A program made the translations under genes and the position numbers. A DNA stretch of 22,283 bases from a virus, in IMG/VR virus record IMGVR_UViG_3300025000_001858, positions 1-22,283 of that record; one strand, 5' to 3'. How positions within the stretch are numbered: position 1 is the stretch's first letter; each line of letters begins with the position of its first letter. The notes under the pieces are model-generated. The model was not told where the DNA came from, did not search any database, and saw only the letters and a list, made by a program, of their open reading frames with translations. Below, one piece after another: positions 4,160-20,181 of the stretch.

Positions 4160-4840
4160 TCAGGTGATGTAGGGGAGCCGGGTGCGGCTCGGGTGGTAGA
4201 ACTTCCGGCGGAGCACCCGCCGTTGCTTCTGTCTGATGGCCGTCGCGTAGAGGTTCTCCCTCTCTCGGGCGTAGTCACGCTCGAACTTCGCCTCGGCTGC
4301 CGACGCCCCCTTCGCCCCGCAGACGAGCGCCGCCGTGAGAAGCGCCACGGCCTCCGCGGAGTCGATCATCGGGAGAGCGTCGGTCGGGAGCGCCACCTCG
4401 GGCGGGACGCTCAGGTAGTCGATCTGCACTTCCCGGTCCGCGGTCGCGCCGGCGAAGCGGATCGCCCCACCCTGCCACGACCAGGACCCGAGAAACTCCC
4501 TCTGCTCCGTGTTCGCGAGGTCCTCACGAACCTGCACCATCCCGCGCCAGTCCGAGGCCAGGGTCGAGCCAGCCGCCCTCTCGTGGAGGACCACCGGCTG
4601 GACGAAGTCGGCCGGGAGCGGTGGCGTGCTCGTGAGGGTCAGCGCCGTGACCCCCGCCGGCACCGTGACGGTCGCCTCGAGCCGGTACCTCTCGATCCCC
4701 TTCGACCGGAGGAACCCATCGAGACGGCTCTGCGCGATCCCCACGTACGGCAGGAGCACCGAGTCCTGGTACTCCTGCACGTCGAGGTCGTTCAGGAGCG
4801 CCCTGACCTTCCCCGTCACGGTGGCGAGGGTGTCGGCCAT
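4160..4840 (-). CDS. Head-tail adaptor (connector) protein, tail tubular A / gp4-like
   Basis: This 226-residue protein fits the phage adaptor class that binds beneath the portal and joins it to the tail. The N-terminus is a helical bundle pattern (VTGKVRALLNDLDVQEYQDS, residues 8-27, then LLPYVGIAQSRLDGFLRSKG), followed by a beta domain (RYRLEATVTVPAGVTALTLT). A C-terminal helix with charged repeats (EAKFERDYARERENLYATAI) leads to a basic tail (KQRRVLRRKFYHP). The length is near the 196 residues of T7 gp11. Position between capsid-side genes and the nozzle-like gene supports the call. The ATG is one base past the previous stop (TAG, then TC, then ATG), with only a weak AGGT nearby. Confidence 0.7.
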   Translation of the reverse strand: MADTLATVTGKVRALLNDLDVQEYQDSVLLPYVGIAQSRLDGFLRSKGIERYRLEATVTVPAGVTALTLTSTPPLPADFVQPVVLHERAAGSTLASDWRGMVQVREDLANTEQREFLGSWSWQGGAIRFAGATADREVQIDYLSVPPEVALPTDALPMIDSAEAVALLTAALVCGAKGASAAEAKFERDYARERENLYATAIRQKQRRVLRRKFYHPSRTRLPYIT

Positions 4841-6273: not shown

Positions 6274-7539
6274 TCAGTAGCCGGTCGGCTTCACGAGCGA
6301 GGAAACGTACCCGCCCGCGGAGGTGTCGACGCACATGAAGGCGCCTTCCCAGATGAGGTACCAGACGTAGGCACTCATCGGGTAGCCGTCGGTGGTGGAG
6401 TAGCGCGGGAAGAGGGTCGCGGTCCCCATCTTCAGGAGCTGAACGTCCTCCACGACGAGGCGCGCCCAGGCGGACGGGACGAAGTAGTCGAGCCGGGTGT
6501 CGGGAGCGTGCGTGCACTGTTTGAAGGGGCGTCCGCAGAACTGCCCGTCGGTCTCGATGTCGAAGCCGAAGTCGGGGACCTTGCCGTGGTTCGCCGGGCC
6601 CTCGAGCTCCTGGATGGCGGTCGCGCTCTCGGCCAACCCGGCCCACTGGGCCATCGAGCCGATCCACAGGCCCTTCTTGACGGAGTCCTTGCCCCGCTTC
6701 TGGCGCATCTTGTGGAGGAGCTGGTAGCCGTGGGAGTAGGTGAGCTGCGAGCCGGCGGGGACGTAGGGGGTCCGGATCTCCGGGTACGCCGCCCGATCGA
6801 GGCCGCCCACGAGGCCCGTGGCGGCGCCGTTGTGCCACCCCGGGATGCCGGCCACCGTGACCGGCGTCGCGCCCGTGAGGCCGCCGAGGCAGTAGACGTC
6901 GCCCGCGATCTGCGCGGCGAAGGCCGCGGAGAAGACGACGGTCTTGGTCTCGTAGTCGACCGAGACGACCTCGACGTCGGTCACGCCGCCCGCCGTGGAG
7001 CGCTGCGTCGCCTGGTTGCTCGTGTAGCAGGTGACCGCCATGCCCGGCTGGAAGTTGCGGGCGTCGTCGAGGACCACGGTCGTGGTCGTGTGCCCCGACA
7101 CGACGGCGGCGAGGATGCCGTTACCGGCCTGGAACGCGAGGATGTCCAGGAAGGCCGCGACCCCCTTGCTCGAGTCCTCCATCTCGGACTCGACGAGGTT
7201 CTCCACCGCCTTCTCCGGGCTGTTGGAGTGGTACTCGACCGCGAGGCTCATCTCCTTCGCATACTTCAAGGGATAGGGGCTCGCGGTGTACTCCTTGCGG
7301 AGCCCCGCGTTGCCCGGACCGAGAGAGATGGCGCCGTTGAAGTTCGCCATCGACGCGCGTCCGCCCGTCCGCACCCAGATCGGCGCGCGGTACGCCTTCT
7401 GACCGATCGTCACGACGTCGGTCCGCTTCTTCATCAGGTTGTAGAGGTCGGCGTCCTGGGGGACCATCTTCGGGAGAGGGTTCTTCTTCCGAACCTTCTC
7501 CAGGTAGGTCGCCACCGCCTCGCTGTCGATCATCGGCAT
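6274..7539 (-). CDS. Major capsid protein (HK97-like fold suspected)
   Basis: This 421-residue protein follows the scaffold-like gene by three bases, the classical place of the major head subunit. It has an N-terminal arm, a long helix in the first third (SPEKAVENLVESEMEDSSKG) that fits the spine helix of the HK97 fold, and Gly/Ala/Thr-rich beta regions. The C-terminal domain ends in YPMSAYVWYLIWEGAFMCVD. Central residues about 170-240 look like an extra beta insertion (ITCYT- and VVSVDYETKTVVF-like strands). Two Met codons stand at residues 1 and 3, and the first has GAAGGGA at fair spacing. Family assignment rests on context and fold pattern, not a signature motif. Confidence 0.75.
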   Translation of the reverse strand: MPMIDSEAVATYLEKVRKKNPLPKMVPQDADLYNLMKKRTDVVTIGQKAYRAPIWVRTGGRASMANFNGAISLGPGNAGLRKEYTASPYPLKYAKEMSLAVEYHSNSPEKAVENLVESEMEDSSKGVAAFLDILAFQAGNGILAAVVSGHTTTTVVLDDARNFQPGMAVTCYTSNQATQRSTAGGVTDVEVVSVDYETKTVVFSAAFAAQIAGDVYCLGGLTGATPVTVAGIPGWHNGAATGLVGGLDRAAYPEIRTPYVPAGSQLTYSHGYQLLHKMRQKRGKDSVKKGLWIGSMAQWAGLAESATAIQELEGPANHGKVPDFGFDIETDGQFCGRPFKQCTHAPDTRLDYFVPSAWARLVVEDVQLLKMGTATLFPRYSTTDGYPMSAYVWYLIWEGAFMCVDTSAGGYVSSLVKPTGY

Positions 7540-7542
7540 GGC

Positions 7543-8838
7543 TTATCCCTTCATCACGGCCCGGAAGATGTCGCGCGCTGTGGGCCTCGCCCCGGGAGGC
7601 AGAGCGGGCGCCGACGTCGTCGCCGGCCTCCCTCCCGTCGCCTCTCGAATCGAGACCACCTTCGCGGCCTTCCCGAGCTTCAGTTGTGAGGCCTTTCGGA
7701 TCCGCTCCGCGATGCCGTCGGTCCTCTTCCGGAACTCCAGGTCCACCACGTTCTTCGCCCGCGCCCGGATGAGGCCCGCCGCCTTGGCGATCCTCTGCTC
7801 CGGGGGGAGGCTCGTGTCGTTGAGGGCCTGAATGAAGAGGCGCTGGACGGCACCGTTTCCGGCGACGGTCCGGTGAACCCCGTGAACGATTTCGTTGATG
7901 ACTTGCTCCGAGGTGAGGAGCCCATCCGGGTCCCGCCTCTTCACCACGTCGGCCACCAGCGCCCGGACCTCGCGGTCCGCCGCCTCGTTGCCGCCTGCGA
8001 AGAGACGCTGCCGCTGCTCCGCCTGCCCCCGGGTGTCCTGCTCCCGCCTCCGCGCCGGCTCCTGCGCGTCCGGATTCGGAAGGGGGGCCGGGGCTGCGGC
8101 CGCGGGCGCCGCCGTGCGCCCCGTTGCGAGCTCGTCGATCATCTCGCGGACCGCCGCCAGCGCCTCGCGCCTGAACGGGTCCTCCGCCGCGATCGACTCG
8201 AGCTTCGCGAGCCCCGTTTCCCAGACCTGGCCGCCGAGCTCGTAGTAAGCCTCGGGGGCCAGCTTGGGGAGGCTCTTCGCCACCGTCCGGATGAACCGGT
8301 CGGCGTTCCCCGGGTCCAGCTCGCGCAGCCCGTCGAGGAACTTCTCGGGGCCGTCGGCGTCCGGGTGCGTGAAGAGACCCTCGAAGGCGTCCAGCGCCTT
8401 CGCACGGTCGACCGTGAGGGTCAGGTCGTCGAGGGACTGGATCTGCTCCCTGTACGCCTGGGCCTCTTCGACCGAGATGCCGAGGGGGTCGAGGTCCCGC
8501 TTGTAGAAGTGGGCCGCCCTGAGCTCGGGGAACTTCTTCAGGACCGCCTTCAGGTCCTTCGGGATCTCCGCGTCCTCGAGGGGGTCTTCCTCCGCGGTCT
8601 TCTTCTCCGGCTCGGCTTCGGCAGGGGGCTCCTCGCCCTCCGCCTCTTCGCTCCCTTCGCCGTCGGTACTCGCCTCGTCGGCCAGGTCCTCACCCGCATC
8701 CTCTTCGCCCTCGCCCATCAGGGCAGCGAAGCGGGACGGCGTTTCGGGGGCGGCCGAGGACTCGCTTGGCGCCGGCGAGCTCGGTTCCGCGTCCACGGTC
8801 GGGGCCGCACTCGCCCCGGTTTCGATGTCGTCGCTCAT
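7543..8838 (-). CDS. Capsid scaffolding-like protein
   Basis: This 431-residue protein sits directly upstream of the capsid gene. Residues 1-95 are acidic, Ala/Ser/Pro/Glu-rich and probably disordered. The middle is largely helical with charged segments (LPKLAPEAYYELGGQVWETG and similar), then a Gln/Arg-rich linker (RRREQDTRGQAEQRQR), then a C-terminal helical and basic region (KASQLKLGKAAKVVSIREAT). This layout matches scaffold proteins, whose basic C-terminal part binds the capsid protein. Length is above the T7 scaffold (about 300) and near other podovirus scaffolds. The ATG overlaps the stop of a possible 23-residue cistron (TGATG) and has GGGAGG six bases upstream. No protease catalytic motif is visible. 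Confidence 0.75.
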   Translation of the reverse strand: MSDDIETGASAAPTVDAEPSSPAPSESSAAPETPSRFAALMGEGEEDAGEDLADEASTDGEGSEEAEGEEPPAEAEPEKKTAEEDPLEDAEIPKDLKAVLKKFPELRAAHFYKRDLDPLGISVEEAQAYREQIQSLDDLTLTVDRAKALDAFEGLFTHPDADGPEKFLDGLRELDPGNADRFIRTVAKSLPKLAPEAYYELGGQVWETGLAKLESIAAEDPFRREALAAVREMIDELATGRTAAPAAAAPAPLPNPDAQEPARRREQDTRGQAEQRQRLFAGGNEAADREVRALVADVVKRRDPDGLLTSEQVINEIVHGVHRTVAGNGAVQRLFIQALNDTSLPPEQRIAKAAGLIRARAKNVVDLEFRKRTDGIAERIRKASQLKLGKAAKVVSIREATGGRPATTSAPALPPGARPTARDIFRAVMKG

Positions 8839-8944: not shown

Positions 8945-10189
8945 CTAGAAGGTCGCCAGTGCGACCCAACTGTAGGAATCCGCGTCCGACTTGCCGCAAA
9001 TCGCGATCGTGTCCGCGACCCCGGCCCCGCCCGCTACGTAGAACATCAGGCCGCGCGCAGTCGCGTCGCACGTCGGGCGACTGCCGGTGACCAGCCGCAC
9101 CCCGGTACCGACCAACCGTGCCTGTCCCGTGCTCCCCGCCCACACGTCCGCGACGGAGCCGTTGCCGAGTACGACGCGGTTGTCGGCATCGACGTAGGCT
9201 GCGTAGCCGATGGCCGTCGCGTTGTTCCGTTGCGCCGCGGAGCCGAGGCCCGCCAGGGGGCCGATAAACGTGCCGGTGCCGCCGGTCGTAACGGCGTTTG
9301 CCGTGCTCGGCGTGGCCCCCGACGAGTACCCGGCTGAGAAGCCGATCGCGACGTTGGTGTTGCCCGTCGTGACGCTCCGGAGCGCCGAGTGCCCTAGCGC
9401 CAGATTGGTCGCGCACGAAGTGCAGACGAGGAGCGCGCCGGTGCCGACCGCTACGTTGCTGAACCCGGTTTCGATGGCCGCGAGCGCGTTGTTGCCGACG
9501 CTCGTATTCGTTGAACCGAGCGTCATCCCGAGCGCCGTACCGCGATAGACGCGCACCCCCGCGAAACCGTCCGAGTTTGACCCGCTGACGGTCAGCGCCG
9601 CGTCCGCGCTGTTGTCGTCGTAGGTCGTCGTCGCAATCGGGATCGTCCCCGACGTGACCCACCACGACGACGTCGGCCCCTGCTTGGACGAGTAGACCTT
9701 CCACCCGGTCGCCAGCGGCGGCGGCGAGGCGGGCTGCGTCGTCGTGATCGCCTTCGTCCCGTCCACGGTGATGTTCGCGCTGACCGTCCCGACAGCGGTC
9801 TCGCCAGTCGCCGTGACCCACGAGCACTTGACGTTCCACGTCCCGGCAGGCTTCGTGCCCGCCGCTATGGCCGCAAGCGTCGCTGCGCCAGGGGGCGCGA
9901 CAGGGGTTAGGGTGAGGGCGCCGCCGTCCACGCTGACGTTCCGCGCGACGGTGGTCCCGGTGCTCGTCGTCGTGTCCGTCGTCGGCGCGTAGACCGTCGG
10001 CGAGCAGGCGAGATACGGCGGCGTGCCGGAGAAGTACGGCACCAGCCCGTCCGCGCAGCCCGTAGGGGCCGTCGCCGCCCCGTAGGACCACCCCTCGTTC
10101 ATCCGCGCCGGCCGCTGCTGCTGCGCGAGCGCCTCGAGCGGGACGAGGAGCACCGCCAGGAGCGCGAAGAGAGCCGAGAGCCGTCTCAT
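8945..10189 (-). CDS. Fibre or adhesin-like protein with Sec signal peptide and YadA-head-like repeats
   Basis: This is a 414-residue protein, started at the ATG overlapping the previous stop (ATGA). A GTG 15 bases upstream is possible but would put five extra residues before the signal. Residues 1-22 form a textbook Sec signal peptide: MRR, a leucine-rich core (LSALFALLAVLLVPLEALA), and likely cleavage after ALA-22. A fibronectin-like beta region lies around 115-200 (GTWNVKCSWVTATGETAVGT). From about 225 come repeats of the YadA head type: NTSVGNNAL, NVAVGTGAL, NLALGHSAL, NVAIGFSAG, NATAIGYAA. These fold as left-handed beta-roll coils in trimeric adhesins. The C-terminus carries two Cys (374, 398) in RPTCDATARG and ADTIAICGK. 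It lies between head genes, so it may be a virion fibre, but the signal implies export. Codon use (more GCG, GGC) looks unlike its neighbours, which suggests later acquisition. Confidence 0.7.
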   Translation of the reverse strand: MRRLSALFALLAVLLVPLEALAQQQRPARMNEGWSYGAATAPTGCADGLVPYFSGTPPYLACSPTVYAPTTDTTTSTGTTVARNVSVDGGALTLTPVAPPGAATLAAIAAGTKPAGTWNVKCSWVTATGETAVGTVSANITVDGTKAITTTQPASPPPLATGWKVYSSKQGPTSSWWVTSGTIPIATTTYDDNSADAALTVSGSNSDGFAGVRVYRGTALGMTLGSTNTSVGNNALAAIETGFSNVAVGTGALLVCTSCATNLALGHSALRSVTTGNTNVAIGFSAGYSSGATPSTANAVTTGGTGTFIGPLAGLGSAAQRNNATAIGYAAYVDADNRVVLGNGSVADVWAGSTGQARLVGTGVRLVTGSRPTCDATARGLMFYVAGGAGVADTIAICGKSDADSYSWVALATF

Positions 10190-10488
10190 CGCTTGTGCCC
10201 CCACGCGAGGAGGACCTCGTTGATCGTGCCCGCGGCCCGCGTGATGTCGATCTGCACGAGGCTCGAGGGGCGCAGGTCGTAGTACTCCGTCGCCCCGGTG
10301 TAGGCCACGAGCGCCCCGGAGTTTTTCGTCTCCATGAACGACGTCGGGCTCTCCCCCTGGAGGATCGAGATCGACCCCTCGAAGCCCGTGCCGCGGATCT
10401 GGACGCGCAGATAGGCGACGTCTCCGACGCTCTGCACCCCCGAGCTCCAGTTCGCCGTGATGTCCGTCGGGTTGAGCTTGATGACCAT
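10186..10488 (-). CDS. Small head-associated protein, function unknown
   Basis: This 100-residue protein begins MVIKLNPTDITANWSSG and has a beta-rich core (VAYLRVQIRGTGFEGSISIL), ending NEVLLAWGHKR. It has no Cys, membrane segment or signal. AGGAGA overlaps the portal stop and lies six bases before the ATG, so the pair is coupled. Its stop overlaps the fibre start. It could be a fibre-attachment or decoration protein because it joins the portal gene to the fibre gene, but this is only positional. Confidence 0.65.
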   Translation of the reverse strand: MVIKLNPTDITANWSSGVQSVGDVAYLRVQIRGTGFEGSISILQGESPTSFMETKNSGALVAYTGATEYYDLRPSSLVQIDITRAAGTINEVLLAWGHKR

Positions 10489-10498
10489 CGTCGTTCTC

Positions 10499-12916
10499 CT
10501 ACATCACCGGGGCGCCGAGGCCGGGCGCCGTGAGGTCCTGCCCGGGGCCTACGGGGTTCGTCATCGGGTTCATCTCGCGCGCGTCGGGCCTTGGGCCTCC
10601 CGGCCTGGGAGGGCCGCCAGCGGCCGGCGCAGGCCCAGGGGCAGGCATCGGAGGCGCGGAGAGCATCCCCACCAGCGCCTGGCGTTGCTGGATCGCCATG
10701 AGGTGCTCGCGCCAGTGAGCCTTCACGTTCTCCCACCCGGCACTGTTCTGCAGGCGCACCTTCCCGCCCTCGCGGCTGTTGGCCCAGAGGTCGATCGCCT
10801 GGATGTGCGCCGCGTGGTCCTCGAGCTCCACGTCCACCGGCACCGTCGAAGACGGCATCCCGGTGTAGGGGTCGAGCGAGGGGGCCTCGTCGAGGAGGGC
10901 CTCGATTTCCCGGCGCTGCTGCTCCCGCGCGTCCTGCCCGGGGAAGCGGAGGTCCCGGTGCCCGAGGTTCTCCGCCGTGATCGCCTCGTTCTGGGGGCCG
11001 AGGACGAGGCCCTGGAACGCGGCGTTCGCGGAGTATTCGAACCAGGCGGCCCGGCGCTCGGCGGGCCCCATCGGGAACCCGGCATCGTCGTCGCTCTCGA
11101 TCCGGATCTCCCCCTTCAGGGAGTCGATCGAGATGGTCTGCTTTCCCCACTCGCCCGAGTCGTTCTGCGTCCCTACCTCGACGTCGTCGTACCCGTCCCG
11201 CGCGTAGATCTCCACCGCCTGGAGGTCGCTCTCGTTCGAAAGCGCCTCGAGCTCCTTCCACGGGATGCCGTGACGCATCAGCCCCTGGTCGCGCATGAGG
11301 CGGTAGCCGCCGAGGGTTCGGCCGGCGCCGCCCGCGTTACCACCCCACAGGGCCGGGACGATTCCGCTGCGCTGCTGCGCCCTCTCGCCCCCCAGCTCCT
11401 TCTCGAGGTTGCCGACCTCGGACGGGAGGTTCGCGGTTGGAGTCGGCACCACGGCGTCCCGGAGGCTCCCGCCGTCCGCCGGGGTCTTCGCCTGGTAGAT
11501 GAGCCCCGGCTGGATGCGCCCCGCGGCGTACTCCTCGGCGCCGAGGATGTCGTTGTTGACGATCATCGCGGGGATGCCCTGCCGCGCCCCCTCCACCCGG
11601 AGGTTGAGGAGCTCGTTCGCGGTCTGCTGGAGCTCCCAGGTGGCGCTCCCCGCCGAGACGACCCCCGAGCCGTGCCCCGGGAACGTGAACCGGAAGGTCC
11701 AGTGATCGTCCATCGACTCGTCGAAGGCCTCGCAGAGGACGTCGCCCATGAAGACGAGGAGGGCCCCCTCCCCGAACTTCTCCTTCAGCTTCGCCTTCAC
11801 CCCGGGGTCCCCGACCTCCTCGAGCTGCCAGGGGCGGAGCCAGGCCCTCTCGTAGCAGAGGAGGTGATCGGGCCGCCGACTCGATCCGTAGACCAGGCCG
11901 CGCCGGGCCTCCGTCTCGTAGCTCTCCGAGGAGGACCCGCCGCTCCCCTTGTCGGTCAGCTCATCCGCCTTCTGGGGGTAGAGAGCCTTCGCGTGCGCCC
12001 TGGGGACGTCCTCCACGAGGGAGACGTACCCGCACTCCCTCACCAGGCGCGCCCCGGGGGTCCGCCGCATCTCGATCAGCCCGTGCGCGGTCTTCACCAC
12101 GCCGGCCTTGGGGATCTCGAGCATCCGCGCGACCCGGGGAACGGGGCCGTACTCCGGAGGTATCGGGCTCCCCATCTCGAGCGGGGCTCCGCAGTCGACG
12201 CACGCCGGCGCCTCCATCGGGGAGGTCTCTCCGCACATCGCGCATCGCATGGACGCGGGGCTCGTCTCCCCGATCTCGATCGTGATCTCGGGCTCGGTCG
12301 TCGACCCGAATCGCGCCTTGTCCGCACGCAGCCGCGTGTAGACCGCGCCGAACCCGTCGTTCCAGAAGTAGTAGCCGAGCCAGCGCCGGATGGTCAGGGA
12401 GTCGGTCGCCTTGTTCACCCACTCCACGAACCGCTCCCCCTCCTCGGCCGCGATCACGTCGCGCGGCTTGTCCGGGTCTCCGGGGGCGAAGCTGGTCTGC
12501 ACCGGGTTGGCGATCATCAGTGCCACGAAGTCGAGCCCGTACGGCGTGTAGAAGTTGTCGATGTGGAACGAGGGGAGGTCCTGGTCGGGCTCCGCCTCGT
12601 CCTCGAGCTGGCGGATGACGTCGACGTACCGCCTCTCACCCGGATCCCAGGCCAGGAGCTGCCGGCCGTTCCACCCTTCCCGGCGCTCGAGAGCCGGGCG
12701 GATCTCCTCCATCCGGAACCCGTCGTCGGAGTCCTTGATCTTCGTCCAGATCGCCTTGAGGGCGGCCTCTTCCTCCTCGTCGAGCTCCACCGCGGCCCGG
12801 TCGTACGTCGGGGCGTGGTCGTCTCCAACGAGGATGCCCCGCTGCTCCTCGCGGGCCTCGTCCTCTCCACCCTCAGAGCCCGTGAGCGTCGCCAGGAGTC
12901 CCTCGAGGCCCTCCAT
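10499..12916 (-). CDS. Portal protein with inserted zinc ribbon
   Basis: This 805-residue protein is the dodecameric ring at the head vertex through which DNA enters and leaves. The size suits the large P22-like portal class. N-terminal residues 1-55 are acidic and likely disordered. Recognisable portal-type segments include YTPYGLDFVALMIANP (123-138), LTIRRWLGYYFWNDGFGA (174-191) and the wing-to-stem helices after SATWELQQTANELLNLRVEG. An insert at 225-242 holds CAMC and CVDC with a 10-residue spacer, a zinc-ribbon pattern. The C-terminus is Pro/Gly-rich (MPAPGPAPAAGGPPRPGGPR). The start ATG shares one base with the previous stop (TGATG), with AAGGAG eight bases upstream. It is downstream of terminase and upstream of scaffold and capsid, with an unusual gene block in between. 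Confidence 0.8.
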   Translation of the reverse strand: MEGLEGLLATLTGSEGGEDEAREEQRGILVGDDHAPTYDRAAVELDEEEEAALKAIWTKIKDSDDGFRMEEIRPALERREGWNGRQLLAWDPGERRYVDVIRQLEDEAEPDQDLPSFHIDNFYTPYGLDFVALMIANPVQTSFAPGDPDKPRDVIAAEEGERFVEWVNKATDSLTIRRWLGYYFWNDGFGAVYTRLRADKARFGSTTEPEITIEIGETSPASMRCAMCGETSPMEAPACVDCGAPLEMGSPIPPEYGPVPRVARMLEIPKAGVVKTAHGLIEMRRTPGARLVRECGYVSLVEDVPRAHAKALYPQKADELTDKGSGGSSSESYETEARRGLVYGSSRRPDHLLCYERAWLRPWQLEEVGDPGVKAKLKEKFGEGALLVFMGDVLCEAFDESMDDHWTFRFTFPGHGSGVVSAGSATWELQQTANELLNLRVEGARQGIPAMIVNNDILGAEEYAAGRIQPGLIYQAKTPADGGSLRDAVVPTPTANLPSEVGNLEKELGGERAQQRSGIVPALWGGNAGGAGRTLGGYRLMRDQGLMRHGIPWKELEALSNESDLQAVEIYARDGYDDVEVGTQNDSGEWGKQTISIDSLKGEIRIESDDDAGFPMGPAERRAAWFEYSANAAFQGLVLGPQNEAITAENLGHRDLRFPGQDAREQQRREIEALLDEAPSLDPYTGMPSSTVPVDVELEDHAAHIQAIDLWANSREGGKVRLQNSAGWENVKAHWREHLMAIQQRQALVGMLSAPPMPAPGPAPAAGGPPRPGGPRPDAREMNPMTNPVGPGQDLTAPGLGAPVM

Positions 12917-15212: not shown

Positions 15213-15614
15213 CTACTTCTCCTCGGGCAGTGACCGGACCGCCTTCGCTTCGGCCGTCCGGAGTTCCTTCAGTTGCTTCGGCAGGGCCCCCTTACGCTCC
15301 AGGGCCTCAACCGCTTCCTCGAGCCGCTTCCGCCACCCGGCGAGCGCCGCGTGCGCCTCTCGGCACCCCGCTCCCGCCACCTCGACGCACCTCTCCTCGT
15401 ACCGCGCGTTCGCCCAGGCCCACCCGTTCGCGGACGTGAGGACCTTCTGCTCCGACGTCGCACAGCCGGCGGCCAGGAAGGCCAGCACGGCGAGCGAAAA
15501 GGTGAGGGGGCGACCGGGGAGGTGGGACCGGCCGCCCCCTCGGGGGGGGAGAGAACCCGGCGCCTCGGGTGACAGCCCGACGAACCGGGGGAGGAGACCC
15601 AGGGAGCGCCTCAC
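15213..15614 (-). CDS. Putative outer-membrane lipoprotein
   Basis: The protein has a lipobox: LTFSLAVLAFLAAGC, with the modified Cys followed by ATS, so no Asp at +2 and outer-membrane sorting is expected in Gram-negatives. The mature part is about 80 residues and helical (EEAVEALERKGALPKQLKEL), with two extra Cys (ERCVEVAGAGC). The start is uncertain. GTG 15614 overlaps the terminase stop (GTGA) and is chosen, but it leaves about 36 residues before the hydrophobic core, longer than usual, in a G/C-rich stretch with hairpins. TTG 15629 would be longer still, and the next GTG lies inside the core. An outer spanin is one possibility. Exclusion lipoproteins are another. Neither is shown. Confidence 0.6.
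   Translation of the reverse strand: MRRSLGLLPRFVGLSPEAPGSLPPRGGGRSHLPGRPLTFSLAVLAFLAAGCATSEQKVLTSANGWAWANARYEERCVEVAGAGCREAHAALAGWRKRLEEAVEALERKGALPKQLKELRTAEAKAVRSLPEEK
15535..15570. other. Two short G/C-rich inverted repeats near the lipoprotein start
   Basis: A run of five C is followed by TC and then eight G (15535-15549). Next is ACCCG, six bases, CGGGT (15555-15570). Both could form hairpins in the transcript between terminase and the lipobox. No T-rich tail follows, so they are not clear terminators. They lie inside the chosen reading frame, so they may be only codon bias. Confidence 0.35.
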
Positions 15615-17116
15615 CGGCCCCTCCGCCAACGACCGATGGTCGTCGGGAGGTAGCGGGGTCGCGCCGTCTTCTTCTTCTCTTCGGCGCGGATCTTCTCGAA
15701 CATCAGGTGACGCTCGGTCAGGTCGTGCACCGGGATCTTTTGTTCCTCAACCCGGGCGACCACACGCTCGCGCAGCGTCGGCTCCGGGCCCCTCGAGCGA
15801 TCCACGTACTCGGTGGCGTACCGCCCTGCGTCGCACCCGTGGTTGTTCACGTCGACGGGGGTCTCCTTGATGGGCTTGCCGTCGGGCGCCCTCGGCCAGG
15901 CGTAAACCTCGAGCTCGTCCACCGTGCAGGTGGGGAGGTGCCGCCCCGCGAGGTCCGCGTCCCGCTCCGCGATCGAGCCCTCGACGAAGAACATCCGGGG
16001 CTTCCCGTCCCCGGCGACCCGGAGGCGCGCCTGGACCTTCTGGATGCCGGCCCCGATCTCCTTGATCGCCGCCCGCGTCCGCACTCCCCGGCGGTAGACC
16101 GTCGCCCGATCCTCGAGGTCGTGGTCCGCCACGATCGCCTCGAGGACCATGTCTCCCGGTCCCTCTTCACCCGGCGGGCGGAGTTTCTCGGACTTCAGGA
16201 GAGCCTTGATGTCCTCCGCGAAGTCCTCCGCGAGGCGCTGCGTGCGGTAGAGCTCCCGGACGAGGTACATCCGCCCGTCCCCGTCGATCCCCCAGAGCTG
16301 GAAGACCGAGGGGTTGTTGAAGCCCCAGTCGATCGAGCCGATCCACCGTGTGATCTTTGGGAGCTTGTCCCTCGAGATCAGGTGGATGCCACGGTCGAAA
16401 CCGTCGTAGACGATTCCCTCCGCGGCCACCCACTGCCCGTCCCGCAGGCGCGCACGCCGCACCCCGGTGAGGGCGTCGAGAGCCATGAGGCTCCGCGCCC
16501 CCTGCTCGGTCATCTCCCCGTCGTCGTCGAAAAGGGTGGGGTTGTCCTGGTGCTTCGAGTGCAGGACCCGGAGCGACTCGCGGTGCAGGATCCAGTGGCT
16601 CGGGGGCCCCGGGTTGCAGTCCCCGAAGATCATCGGGGTCTTCGTCTTCGCCCCTCGGCCCGTGCAGCGGGTCGTCAGGATCTCCCAGTCCTCGAGCGTG
16701 AGCTCCTCGGTCTGGTTCACGACGATCCAGTCCCGCTCCCCCGAGAGGACCTTCCCGGGACGGTCCATCCCGCCGATGTAGAGGCGGGCCCCGTTCTCGT
16801 ACTCGTAGAACTCCGGGTGCGACCCGCCGTAGGTCGTCACGCCGCCGCGGATCTTGATGATCCGCTCGTAGGTCTCTAAGACGGTCCCCGTCATGTCGGC
16901 CCGCACCTTCCGAACGAGCGCCGCGCGAGCCCTGGGAGTCGCACGCAGGAGCGTGTCGAGCCTCCAGATCACCAGCCAGGTCTTCCCCGTCTCAGCCGGC
17001 CCCGCCAGCATCCACTCGTGCTGCGTGACACTCAGCGCCTCGAGGGCCGCGCCCCGGAACGTCGGCACCCACGCACGCTTCCGCTTCCGGAGCTCCTGCT
17101 CCGCGGCGACCGCCAT
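15611..17116 (-). CDS. terL: Terminase large subunit (ATPase and nuclease)
   Basis: This 501-residue protein pumps DNA into the procapsid and cuts the concatemer. The Walker A motif is GPAETGKT (39-46). Walker B with catalytic acids is DWIVVNQTEE (129-138, Glu137/138). The coupling-type motif GDCNPGPPSHW follows (165-175). The nuclease domain has the expected acidic residues: Asp263 in SIDWGFNNPS, Asp331/333 in VADHD, and Asp429 in HGCDAGRYATEY. The C-terminus is basic (KKKTARPRYLP). ATG 17116 is chosen because GAGGTG lies six bases upstream, beside the previous stop; the in-frame start at 17173 would overlap the small subunit by 47 bases. It pairs with the small subunit gene 10 bases upstream. 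Confidence 0.95.
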   Translation of the reverse strand: MAVAAEQELRKRKRAWVPTFRGAALEALSVTQHEWMLAGPAETGKTWLVIWRLDTLLRATPRARAALVRKVRADMTGTVLETYERIIKIRGGVTTYGGSHPEFYEYENGARLYIGGMDRPGKVLSGERDWIVVNQTEELTLEDWEILTTRCTGRGAKTKTPMIFGDCNPGPPSHWILHRESLRVLHSKHQDNPTLFDDDGEMTEQGARSLMALDALTGVRRARLRDGQWVAAEGIVYDGFDRGIHLISRDKLPKITRWIGSIDWGFNNPSVFQLWGIDGDGRMYLVRELYRTQRLAEDFAEDIKALLKSEKLRPPGEEGPGDMVLEAIVADHDLEDRATVYRRGVRTRAAIKEIGAGIQKVQARLRVAGDGKPRMFFVEGSIAERDADLAGRHLPTCTVDELEVYAWPRAPDGKPIKETPVDVNNHGCDAGRYATEYVDRSRGPEPTLRERVVARVEEQKIPVHDLTERHLMFEKIRAEEKKKTARPRYLPTTIGRWRRGR

Positions 17117-17126
17117 GCGGAGCACC

Positions 17127-17768
17127 TCAGTGCTCGGCGGCGACGCTTGCGTCGAGCCTTGTGCGGAGAGCATTCAGTTCCTCGTCGGTCATCGCCTCGA
17201 GGTCGAAGGAGCGAACCGCCTCTGGGATGAGGGGCTTCCCACCCTTCCCCGTCAGCTCGGTCCTCTCCGCCCACTCGGGCCGGTGCTTCGCCAGTGCCTT
17301 GTGGAGGGTCCTCTCGAACTGGACCGCTTCCTGGGCCACCCGCTCGCCCTCGAAGTAGATCCCCTTCGTCATCTTCCCGAGTGCGAGGTTCATGGCGTGC
17401 AGCTCGAGGTCGTCGACCCCGGCCTGCACCGCCGTCTCCCACGCTTCCGCGAACTCGGGGTTCTGCTTCCTCTCCTGGTACGCCATCGCTCGGCTGATCG
17501 ACGCCGCGTCCGCGGCCGGCTGGATCACGCCAACGGACTCCCGGAGAGCCTTCAGGAAGATGGGGCGCCAGTTGTACGGCTTCGGGCCGGGCTCCCCCGC
17601 GCGTGGGAGAGTCAAGACTTTCCGAGTCCCTGCCGCCTTCGCCGGGGCCGCCAGGACCTTCCGGGCTCCGCTCCGCCCCCTGGCCTTCGCCTTGGCCTGC
17701 GCGGCCGACTTCTTCGCCGCCTTGGCCTTCGGCCGTGACGTCGGACTCGACTGGCGGATCTTGGTCAC
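17127..17768 (-). CDS. terS: Terminase small subunit
   Basis: This 213-residue protein precedes terL, as expected for the DNA-recognition subunit. Residues 1-50 are a basic Lys/Ala/Arg-rich tail (SRPKAKAAKKSAAQAKAKAR). A helix-turn-helix-like domain follows at about 68-115 (RPIFLKALRESVGVIQPAAD, then AASISRAMAYQERK), ending in the frequent NPEFAEAWETA helix seen in small terminases. A conserved charged region (LALGKMTKGIYFEGERVAQE) may form the oligomer core. The C-terminus (AMTDEELNALRTRLDA) would contact the large subunit. The start is GTG, with only GGGGG as a weak site inside a hairpin, which suggests controlled translation. Confidence 0.85.
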   Translation of the reverse strand: MTKIRQSSPTSRPKAKAAKKSAAQAKAKARGRSGARKVLAAPAKAAGTRKVLTLPRAGEPGPKPYNWRPIFLKALRESVGVIQPAADAASISRAMAYQERKQNPEFAEAWETAVQAGVDDLELHAMNLALGKMTKGIYFEGERVAQEAVQFERTLHKALAKHRPEWAERTELTGKGGKPLIPEAVRSFDLEAMTDEELNALRTRLDASVAAEH

Positions 17769-19164: not shown

Positions 19165-19219
19165 CAGGCACCTCCGGGAACTCCCCCTCGGCCTCGTCCA
19201 ACAGTTCGGCGAGGGTCAT
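19157..19219 (-). CDS. Possible 20-residue acidic peptide
   Basis: The frame encodes MTLAELLDEAEGEFPEVPGE. Its ATG overlaps the stop of the preceding gene (ATGA), and GGAGG lies six bases upstream, which is a strong site. Its end supplies the GGAGGTG site of the next gene and overlaps its start by eight bases. It may be a translated coupler or a real microprotein. Confidence 0.45.
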   Translation of the reverse strand: MTLAELLDEAEGEFPEVPGE

Positions 19220-20181
19220 CGCGGTCCTCCCCCCAGCGCCGCCGCCAGCCGCGCCTTGGCCTCGTCGATGCGGGACACGAGGCCGACCGGCACGTCGTAG
19301 TCCGACCAGTACACTGCGCTCTCCGCGAGGTCGGTCAGGACGGCGAGGGCGAAGCGGGAGGCGTCGAGGAGCGGATCGGGCAACCGACAAGGGTTGCTTG
19401 GCAGTCCGTTCATAGCGACGAGGAGATCCTGCACGGCGTAAGCGAGCTTGCTCGGCATGACCGGGTGGCCGCAGTAATCCCCGAACTGATCGACGCCTCC
19501 GAAGACATCGCACATGGCCTTGTCTGCGCGCTCCTTCGCTTCCGCGACCGTCGGGGGCGGCGGGGCGGGGGCCATCTCCGCCAGCGAGTGCGCGTTGATG
19601 GCGGCGGCGACGGCGGGCGTGACGTCCGCGAACGTGCCGCAGTTGATCGGCGGCGTCTGGTAGCCGTCGTCGTACGCGGTGGGGACTGGACAGGCGCACG
19701 GGGCCATCTCGCAGATGCCGCACTCGCCGAAGCGTGCGGGTCCTGTCAGCGGGGCGGGGGCGGGCATGACGGTGCCGGTCGTACCGGACCATTCCATGCC
19801 TGGCAGCGTGGCGGGGGCGTCAGCGGGGTCGCGTGGTTTCGCATGGAACAGCCCGACGAGCCGCTCTTGCTCCGGGCGGTGGCAGCGGCAGTCACACTCG
19901 GCGTCAAGCGACGTGGCGTGCAGGCACATCCGACAAGTGAACTCTCGTTTAGCGCTCCCCTTCGCGGCGTCGAGGAGGGCGCGGAAGGCCTTGGTGAGCG
20001 ACGAGATGCGGCCGGCGAGTGACTCGGACAGGTCGTGCCACTCCTGCCGGCCCTCGTCGTCCATCGGCCCGTACCAGCGAAGCAGCGCCGCCTCGGCTTC
20101 GCGTATCGCGGCGTCGAGGTCAGACGTCGGACGCTCTGGTCCGCCGCGCTCCTCGACGGTCAGGCCGTCAATGGTTCCCAT
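19216..20181 (-). CDS. Cysteine-rich protein with two possible zinc clusters (321 residues)
   Basis: The ATG follows AAAGGAGAGG, an excellent site, and overlaps the previous gene by 14 bases. Residues 20-75 look helical (LDAAIREAEAALLRWYG, then LAGRISSLTKAFRALLDAA). The first cluster is Cys83, Cys86, Cys96, Cys98, Cys100 and His101 (TCRMCLHATSLDAECDCRCH). The second is Cys154, Cys157, Cys162 and Cys164 (ECGICEMAPCACP). A Pro/Ala linker precedes a C-terminal helical domain (AKERADKAMCDVFGGVDQFG and later LLDASRFALAVLTDLA). Repetition of related Cys clusters suggests a scaffold or nucleic-acid role. No enzyme motif is seen. Codon choice looks less biased than the late genes, so transfer is possible. 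Confidence 0.6.
   Translation of the reverse strand: MGTIDGLTVEERGGPERPTSDLDAAIREAEAALLRWYGPMDDEGRQEWHDLSESLAGRISSLTKAFRALLDAAKGSAKREFTCRMCLHATSLDAECDCRCHRPEQERLVGLFHAKPRDPADAPATLPGMEWSGTTGTVMPAPAPLTGPARFGECGICEMAPCACPVPTAYDDGYQTPPINCGTFADVTPAVAAAINAHSLAEMAPAPPPPTVAEAKERADKAMCDVFGGVDQFGDYCGHPVMPSKLAYAVQDLLVAMNGLPSNPCRLPDPLLDASRFALAVLTDLAESAVYWSDYDVPVGLVSRIDEAKARLAAALGGGPR

Follow-up and report, generated by a model that had tools for sequence, protein, structure and literature searches.

Why would a tailed phage carry, in the middle of its virion genes, a gene for a fibre-like protein that begins with a signal peptide? Tailed phages are assumed to fold their fibres, and to assemble them, inside the cytoplasm, and a protein of this kind raises the question of whether it is built into the particle at all. 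The gene lies in a virus record of 22,283 bp without taxonomy, hereafter the window, meaning the whole stretch of DNA that was analysed; its minus strand holds a tailed-phage morphogenesis module (Table 1). A sequence-only reading had described, at 8945-10189, a gene encoding a signal peptide, repeats and a C-terminal cysteine pair, and had regarded it as acquired cargo that might be displayed on the infected host. The coordinates proved exact, and the signal peptide and repeats stood up to shuffling. Here, we combine the anatomy of the protein with a survey of related genes and domains in uncultured phages.

The gene and its neighbourhood

The gene starts with an ATG at 10189 and stops at 8945-8947 on the minus strand, and its start codon overlaps the stop of the preceding 100-aa open reading frame in an ATGA. 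Because of this overlap, we rejected the idea that the signal peptide is an artefact of a wrongly chosen start codon; an alternative GTG at 10204 adds just five residues ahead of the same signal. A consensus scan, which proves little, found no promoter-like site near the gene. Taken together, the overlap and the result of the scan suggest late expression, with translation of the gene probably coupled to that of the late operon. The earlier placement between portal and scaffold genes holds as a position, although both neighbours are named by position only. Its argument from codon preference survives in part: among 21 genes this one shows the largest deviation (z=6.2), with the gene at 19216-20181 (6.0) and that of the major capsid protein (5.3) close behind, so codon use argues weakly for recent acquisition.

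Table 1. Features of the window and of the fibre-like protein (L003, corresponding locus of a relative)
Feature	Position	Strand	Basis or remark
Small terminase	17127-17768	-	PHROG match
Large terminase	15611-17173	-	PHROG match
Small ORF with conserved lipobox, lipoprotein/o-spanin-like	15213..15629	-	LAAGC; LAVGC in relative
Putative portal	10499-12916	-	by position; 69% identical in L003; no convincing family match
100-aa ORF	10186-10488	-	between putative portal and fibre-like gene; ATGA overlap with the start of the latter
Signal-bearing fibre-like protein, 414 aa	8945..10189	-	sequence, signal and repeat scan
Sec signal peptide, residues 1-22, cleavage between ALA and Q	10124..10189	-	score reached by 0/5000 shuffles
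Short segment with Cys45 and Cys62, possible disulfide hairpin	10004..10057	-	sequence
Middle region, residues 95-215, Ig/FN3-like by eye only	9545..9907	-	no family match; pLDDT mostly <50
N-x-A/S-x-G repeat region, ~residues 224-330	9200..9520	-	PHROG 6002 and PHROG 4636 matches
C-terminal cap domain, residues 366-414, with Cys374/Cys398	8948..9094	-	common to ~36 clusters
Putative scaffold	7543-8838	-	by position; 63% identical in L003; no convincing family match
Major capsid protein	6274-7539	-	PHROG 14242, E=7e-5; 75% identical in L003
SU10-type adaptor	4160-4840	-	Pfam match

The conserved lipobox of the small open reading frame beside the large terminase suggests that the host is probably diderm, in which case Sec export alone would bring a protein as far as the periplasm. 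As a separate observation, residues 223-249 of the putative portal contain a CxxC...CxxC stretch, RCAMCGETSPMEAPACVDCG, which resembles a double zinc ribbon below threshold (E=0.075) and is kept in the relative L003 as RCALCSGVSSVDSPACDDCG. A zinc-ribbon-like insert of this kind is unusual for a portal.

The search for relatives of the window phage yielded no more than two. Their genes for terminase, portal, scaffold, capsid and tail follow the same order as in the window, mostly at 45-75% identity. One of them, G002 (42 kb; putative portal 69% identical), repeats its first bases at its end (~245 bp, located by a 40-mer) and is therefore probably a complete genome. Nothing similar to the fibre-like protein was found in G002, and no homologue of the 100-aa open reading frame was found in G001 or G002. 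G002 encodes its own tail spike of 706 aa (PHROG 2234), which has no signal. The absence of the gene from a syntenic, probably complete genome that has a different small open reading frame at the site and a spike of its own shows the gene to be an accessory insertion in a lineage with an ordinary receptor-binding protein, and thus bears out the earlier description as cargo. G002 also encodes an integrase (PF00589), and the lineage may be temperate.

At the portal-scaffold site of the relative (L003:10452-10763), a single unrelated-looking 103-aa open reading frame stands in place of both the 100-aa frame and the fibre-like gene. The site has the look of a slot for cargo genes, and the 103-aa protein might be distantly related to the 100-aa one. 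G002 further encodes a giant protein of 3168 aa (L005:3927-13433), which may be an ejected internal virion protein; it matches PHROG families without an assigned function and, weakly, virion RNA polymerase (E=2e-4).

Anatomy of the fibre-like protein

The N-terminus, MRRLSALFALLAVLLVPLEALA followed by QQQ, is a textbook Sec/signal-peptidase-I signal. With a home-made rule that weighs n-region charge, an uncharged h-region and an A-x-A-type cleavage site, it scores 12.7, a value that none of 5000 shuffled N-termini reached. By the same rule, it is the sole signal peptide among the 28 called genes of the window, none of the others scoring above 0. Searches of Pfam and PHROG gave no family match to the N-terminus as a virion-attachment domain; the segment is a signal peptide instead.

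The repeat region matches PHROG 6002 'virion structural' (E=2.9e-10) and PHROG 4636 'tail spike' (E=5.6e-6). It contains the five N-x(1-2)-[AS]-x-G sites of the protein, at residues 228, 245, 262, 279 and 323, the first four of which are spaced by 17; shuffled versions of the protein have a mean of 1.05 such sites and reached five in 18/5000 cases. Seven cysteines are present (45, 62, 122, 256, 259, 374 and 398), with 374/398 forming the C-terminal pair, and this odd number would leave one unpaired, perhaps Cys122. In an AlphaFold model of the full protein (with fragment rows; mean pLDDT 58.5), the repeats and the cap are modelled and the N-terminal half is not reliably so: the cap reaches 93-95 and most 10-residue repeat blocks 73-90. 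Foldseek returned no convincing fold for either the full model or the cap, and no binding or docking domain was identified in the protein. An endolysin was considered as well and rejected, as no catalytic domain was found.

The signal peptide together with N-x-A/S-x-G repeats could also belong to a lysogenic-conversion adhesin of the trimeric autotransporter (YadA/Eib) kind, standing on the surface of a lysogen, and the integrase of G002, with its hint of a temperate lineage, is in keeping with such a role. However, Pfam gave no YadA head and, even at E<1, no YadA anchor; the gene has no lipobox, the mature part contains no stretch hydrophobic enough for a membrane segment, and the gene is coupled to late genes, the consensus scan having found no promoter-like site of its own. 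We regard a lysogenic adhesin as quite improbable. Two proposals of the sequence-only reading are not supported by these results, namely membership of the trimeric adhesins, whose head motif is present here but with a spacing of 17, and stable display on the cell surface, since a protein that has neither membrane anchor nor lipobox would be left by Sec alone in the periplasm of a probably diderm host.

A widespread C-terminal cap domain

The C-terminal residues of the protein, RPTCDATARGLMFYVAGGAGVADTIAICGKSDADSYSWVALATF, are an instance of a widespread domain, which we call the cap. Searches of IMG/VR with the whole protein, its C-terminus or the capsid protein yielded no relatives, and a degenerate motif was therefore needed. 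We scanned IMG/VR with the pattern GGAGVxD....[hydrophobic]CxK, in which only the second cap cysteine is fixed, and obtained 61 matching loci. Most of them carry '..PTC[DN]...RG......GGAGVxD...xCxKda.d.YaW' at the very end of the open reading frame. The pattern also matched 16 times in 84,980 bacterial and archaeal species, with about nine true caps; when these and the IMG/VR matches are pooled, the cap occurs in ~36 clusters, mostly from IMG/VR contigs. Among deposited phages (50,697 records), a single isolate has it, Bacillus phage Goe8, and plasmids and the PDB gave no convincing match. A second motif scan that did not ask for the cysteine returned mostly high-GC noise and few true caps. 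No Pfam model matches the domain. An isolated cap fragment with its linker was modelled by AlphaFold at a mean pLDDT of 77.9.

A terminase is recognisable in 18 of the 42 cap-bearing records, indicating that these records are phages. In bacterial genomes, too, there are proteins that finish with the cap, namely in Parcubacteria, Jorgensenbacteria, WWE3, Geomonas and Desulfuromonadales (L070, L071, L075, L079, L082), so that the domain is common to phages and cells; the bacterial-genome proteins with complete 5' ends bear signals. Two further architectures were seen. In a 1342-aa open reading frame (L235:2465-6493), an upstream non-exported coding region seems to be fused in frame to a signal-like HFLPLLFVAALHAQ of a cap protein, and at L238:3520-4587 a collagen-like repeat protein ends in a signal-less version of the cap.

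Association of the signal peptide with the cap cysteine pair

A complete 5' end is available for 26 clusters, of which 19 carry a signal peptide according to our rule and three more when judged by eye (L014, L022, L045). After further 5' ends and the full G033 gene had been fetched, 27 signal-bearing and nine signal-less rows could be compared. The first cap cysteine is present in all 27 signal-bearing rows and absent in eight of the nine signal-less ones, the exception being L034, which has the cysteine pair without a signal; a near-identical count (28/1 vs 0/8) gives Fisher p=2e-7. The cap tree, which is poorly resolved, offers one supported independent contrast of signal against cysteine, which is not significant. 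The link is therefore strong and at the same time not phylogenetically independent, and shared ancestry could explain part of it. The signal-less set includes a tail spike (L241; PHROG 2234, E=2.5e-20) and the tail-region protein of Goe8. Export thus accompanies the disulfide-capable form of the cap, whereas the form that lacks the pair belongs to ordinary tail proteins of the cytoplasm.

The same comparison bears on a conventional reading, in which the protein would be an ordinary, cytoplasmically assembled virion fibre and its hydrophobic N-terminus a segment for attachment to the virion or a membrane. Proteins that have the repeats alone or the cap alone are indeed signal-less tail proteins. 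Nevertheless, the signal-bearing N-termini comprise many different sequences that share A-x-A-type cleavage sites followed by Q and no single docking motif, and these sites, the coupling of cysteine to signal and the even cysteine numbers described below recur in many unrelated signal-bearing proteins. An ordinary fibre is thus improbable.

Cysteine parity and clustering of signal-bearing genes

We called genes on about 23 phage records, chosen for carrying the cap. By the signal rule, 82 of 927 proteins are signal-bearing, compared with 25 for shuffled N-termini. Cysteine parity was counted on non-redundant proteins of at least 120 aa, with only the mature part considered for signal-bearing proteins. 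The latter have 34 even and 5 odd cysteine counts (1.73 Cys/100 aa), and the other proteins 136 even and 170 odd (0.84 Cys/100 aa), giving an odds ratio of 8.5 (Fisher p=2.6e-7) for the even excess; with the cap proteins removed, the signal-bearing parity is 33/7. Exported proteins of Gram-negative bacteria are known to favour even cysteine numbers (PMC7678975).

Signal-bearing genes are also clustered. Within four genes of a cap gene they make up 31 of 119 genes, compared with 32 of 598 elsewhere (p=2e-10), which makes them about six times likelier there (odds ratio). Pairs of signal-bearing genes within three genes of each other number 56, against 22 expected; none of 2000 shuffles reached 56. 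Given the choice of records, this clustering applies to cap-bearing phages and not to phages in general. In G025, five signal-bearing genes stand in a row just downstream of the head genes, and G036 has five in a row and two beside a capsid-like gene.

Within structural modules, signal-bearing genes follow one another in runs at L090:2443-8878, at L113:931-7720 and 23488-24659 of G036, and at L089:8377-14072, and one such protein in G017 has a beta-helix (L087:16758-20000). Such runs seem to be a general trait of the uncultured phages in this set.

The cysteine pair that tracks the signal, the clustering in structural modules and the even cysteine numbers together make it very likely that the predicted export of the fibre-like protein is real, as the earlier reading had suspected from the signal peptide. 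Nor does the gene stand alone: many uncultured phages have signal-bearing genes of the fibre-like kind in their structural modules.

Interpretation

Our preferred reading, to which we assign a probability of roughly 0.55, is that the gene encodes a fibre-like accessory protein that is exported and acts either at the envelope or beyond it. As an accessory insertion in a virion operon, probably expressed late, it would yield a product that host Sec exports and that loses its signal peptide between ALA and Q. The protein would then fold into a fibre-like form, with disulfides made in the oxidising periplasm, or outside if the outer membrane is crossed; its oligomeric state we can only infer. It would act outside the cytoplasm, on the envelope of the infected cell or in the medium after lysis, most likely as a binder of surface glycans or receptors, and would not be built into capsid or tail in the cytoplasm. 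The protein appears to be one member of a recurrent group of exported fibre-like phage proteins that share the C-terminal cap.

A second route to the virion deserves attention. The protein could be exported, matured by disulfide formation in the periplasm and docked on virions at lysis, in which case the non-exported 100-aa neighbour could be the docking site. The position in a late structural operon, here and in other phages, suits this proposal, as do a cap and repeats of the type found in phage tail proteins and a neighbour that is both ATGA-coupled to the gene and, like it, missing from G002. On the other hand, G002 has a normal signal-less tail spike while lacking the gene, no docking domain was identified, and we know of no precedent among tailed phages. 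We judge this route unlikely. The wider proposal, that many uncultured phages make some receptor-binding or decoration fibres through Sec export, periplasmic disulfides and joining of virions at lysis, is a tentative one that we likewise doubt; to our knowledge, such a split assembly line has not been described for tailed phages.

The preferred reading of an exported accessory protein draws on two comparative lines, the signal-tracking cysteine pair and the even cysteine numbers across unrelated families. On this sequence evidence, an exported, disulfide-rich, fibre-like set appears to recur in the virion operons of uncultured phages and to be almost absent from cultured ones. With no matching Pfam model for the cap and one deposited isolate, the phenomenon would have been hidden from work on cultured phages. 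This raises the question of whether such exported fibres target the host envelope, serve as soluble binders or are picked up from the periplasm by virions at lysis. Exported accessory proteins encoded by phages are already known, and the present protein has a real chance of being something more unusual.

Relation to known systems

In a literature search, mostly without subscription journals, no paper came up that describes fibres with a signal peptide in the structural modules of phages. Several known groups share part of the layout. Trimeric autotransporter adhesins (type Vc, YadA/Eib) are exported, repeat-rich and fibre-like, as is our protein. They carry a YadA outer-membrane anchor, also in the prophage-borne Eib, whereas our protein ends in the cap; the repeats of YadA heads are spaced by 14 rather than 17. 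Lambda Lom/Bor-type morons are phage proteins with signal peptides, and lom lies among lambda's tail genes, but they are an outer-membrane protein and a lipoprotein and are not fibre-like. Sec-exported endolysins also have signal peptides (PMC6116005), but these are lysis enzymes and likewise not fibre-like.

Closer in sequence are signal-less virion proteins, which the sequence-only reading had named as the kind of homologue that would speak against export. Such proteins exist for the repeats alone and for the cap alone. Proteins of cyanophage S-H9-1/S-CAM4, Pelagibacter phage HTVC112P and Methylophilales phage Venkman, annotated as virion structural or tail, have N-x-A/S-x-G repeats, but they have no signal and no cap and match a small part of our protein. 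Goe8_c01040 of Bacillus phage vB_BmeM-Goe8 and the tail spike at L241:4513-6966 share the cap, are of tail type and lie beside other tail genes, but lack both the signal peptide and the first cap cysteine.

The nearest protein with the full layout does have a signal. It is an 819-aa protein of G033 (L140:7185-9644), an IMG/VR phage contig of 94 kb, and it shares the signal peptide, a cysteine hairpin placed directly after it, N-x-A-x-G repeats that end in a ...FIG...NADN..VLG block as in our protein, and the cysteine-paired cap. Its gene adjoins terminase and portal genes. It differs in being twice as long, in being followed by two more signal-bearing genes and in belonging to an unrelated phage, so that the layout is common to phages that are not related. 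With its signal peptide, its cysteine-paired cap and its place in a structural module, the protein of the window has the features of this cap-sharing, Sec-exported class.
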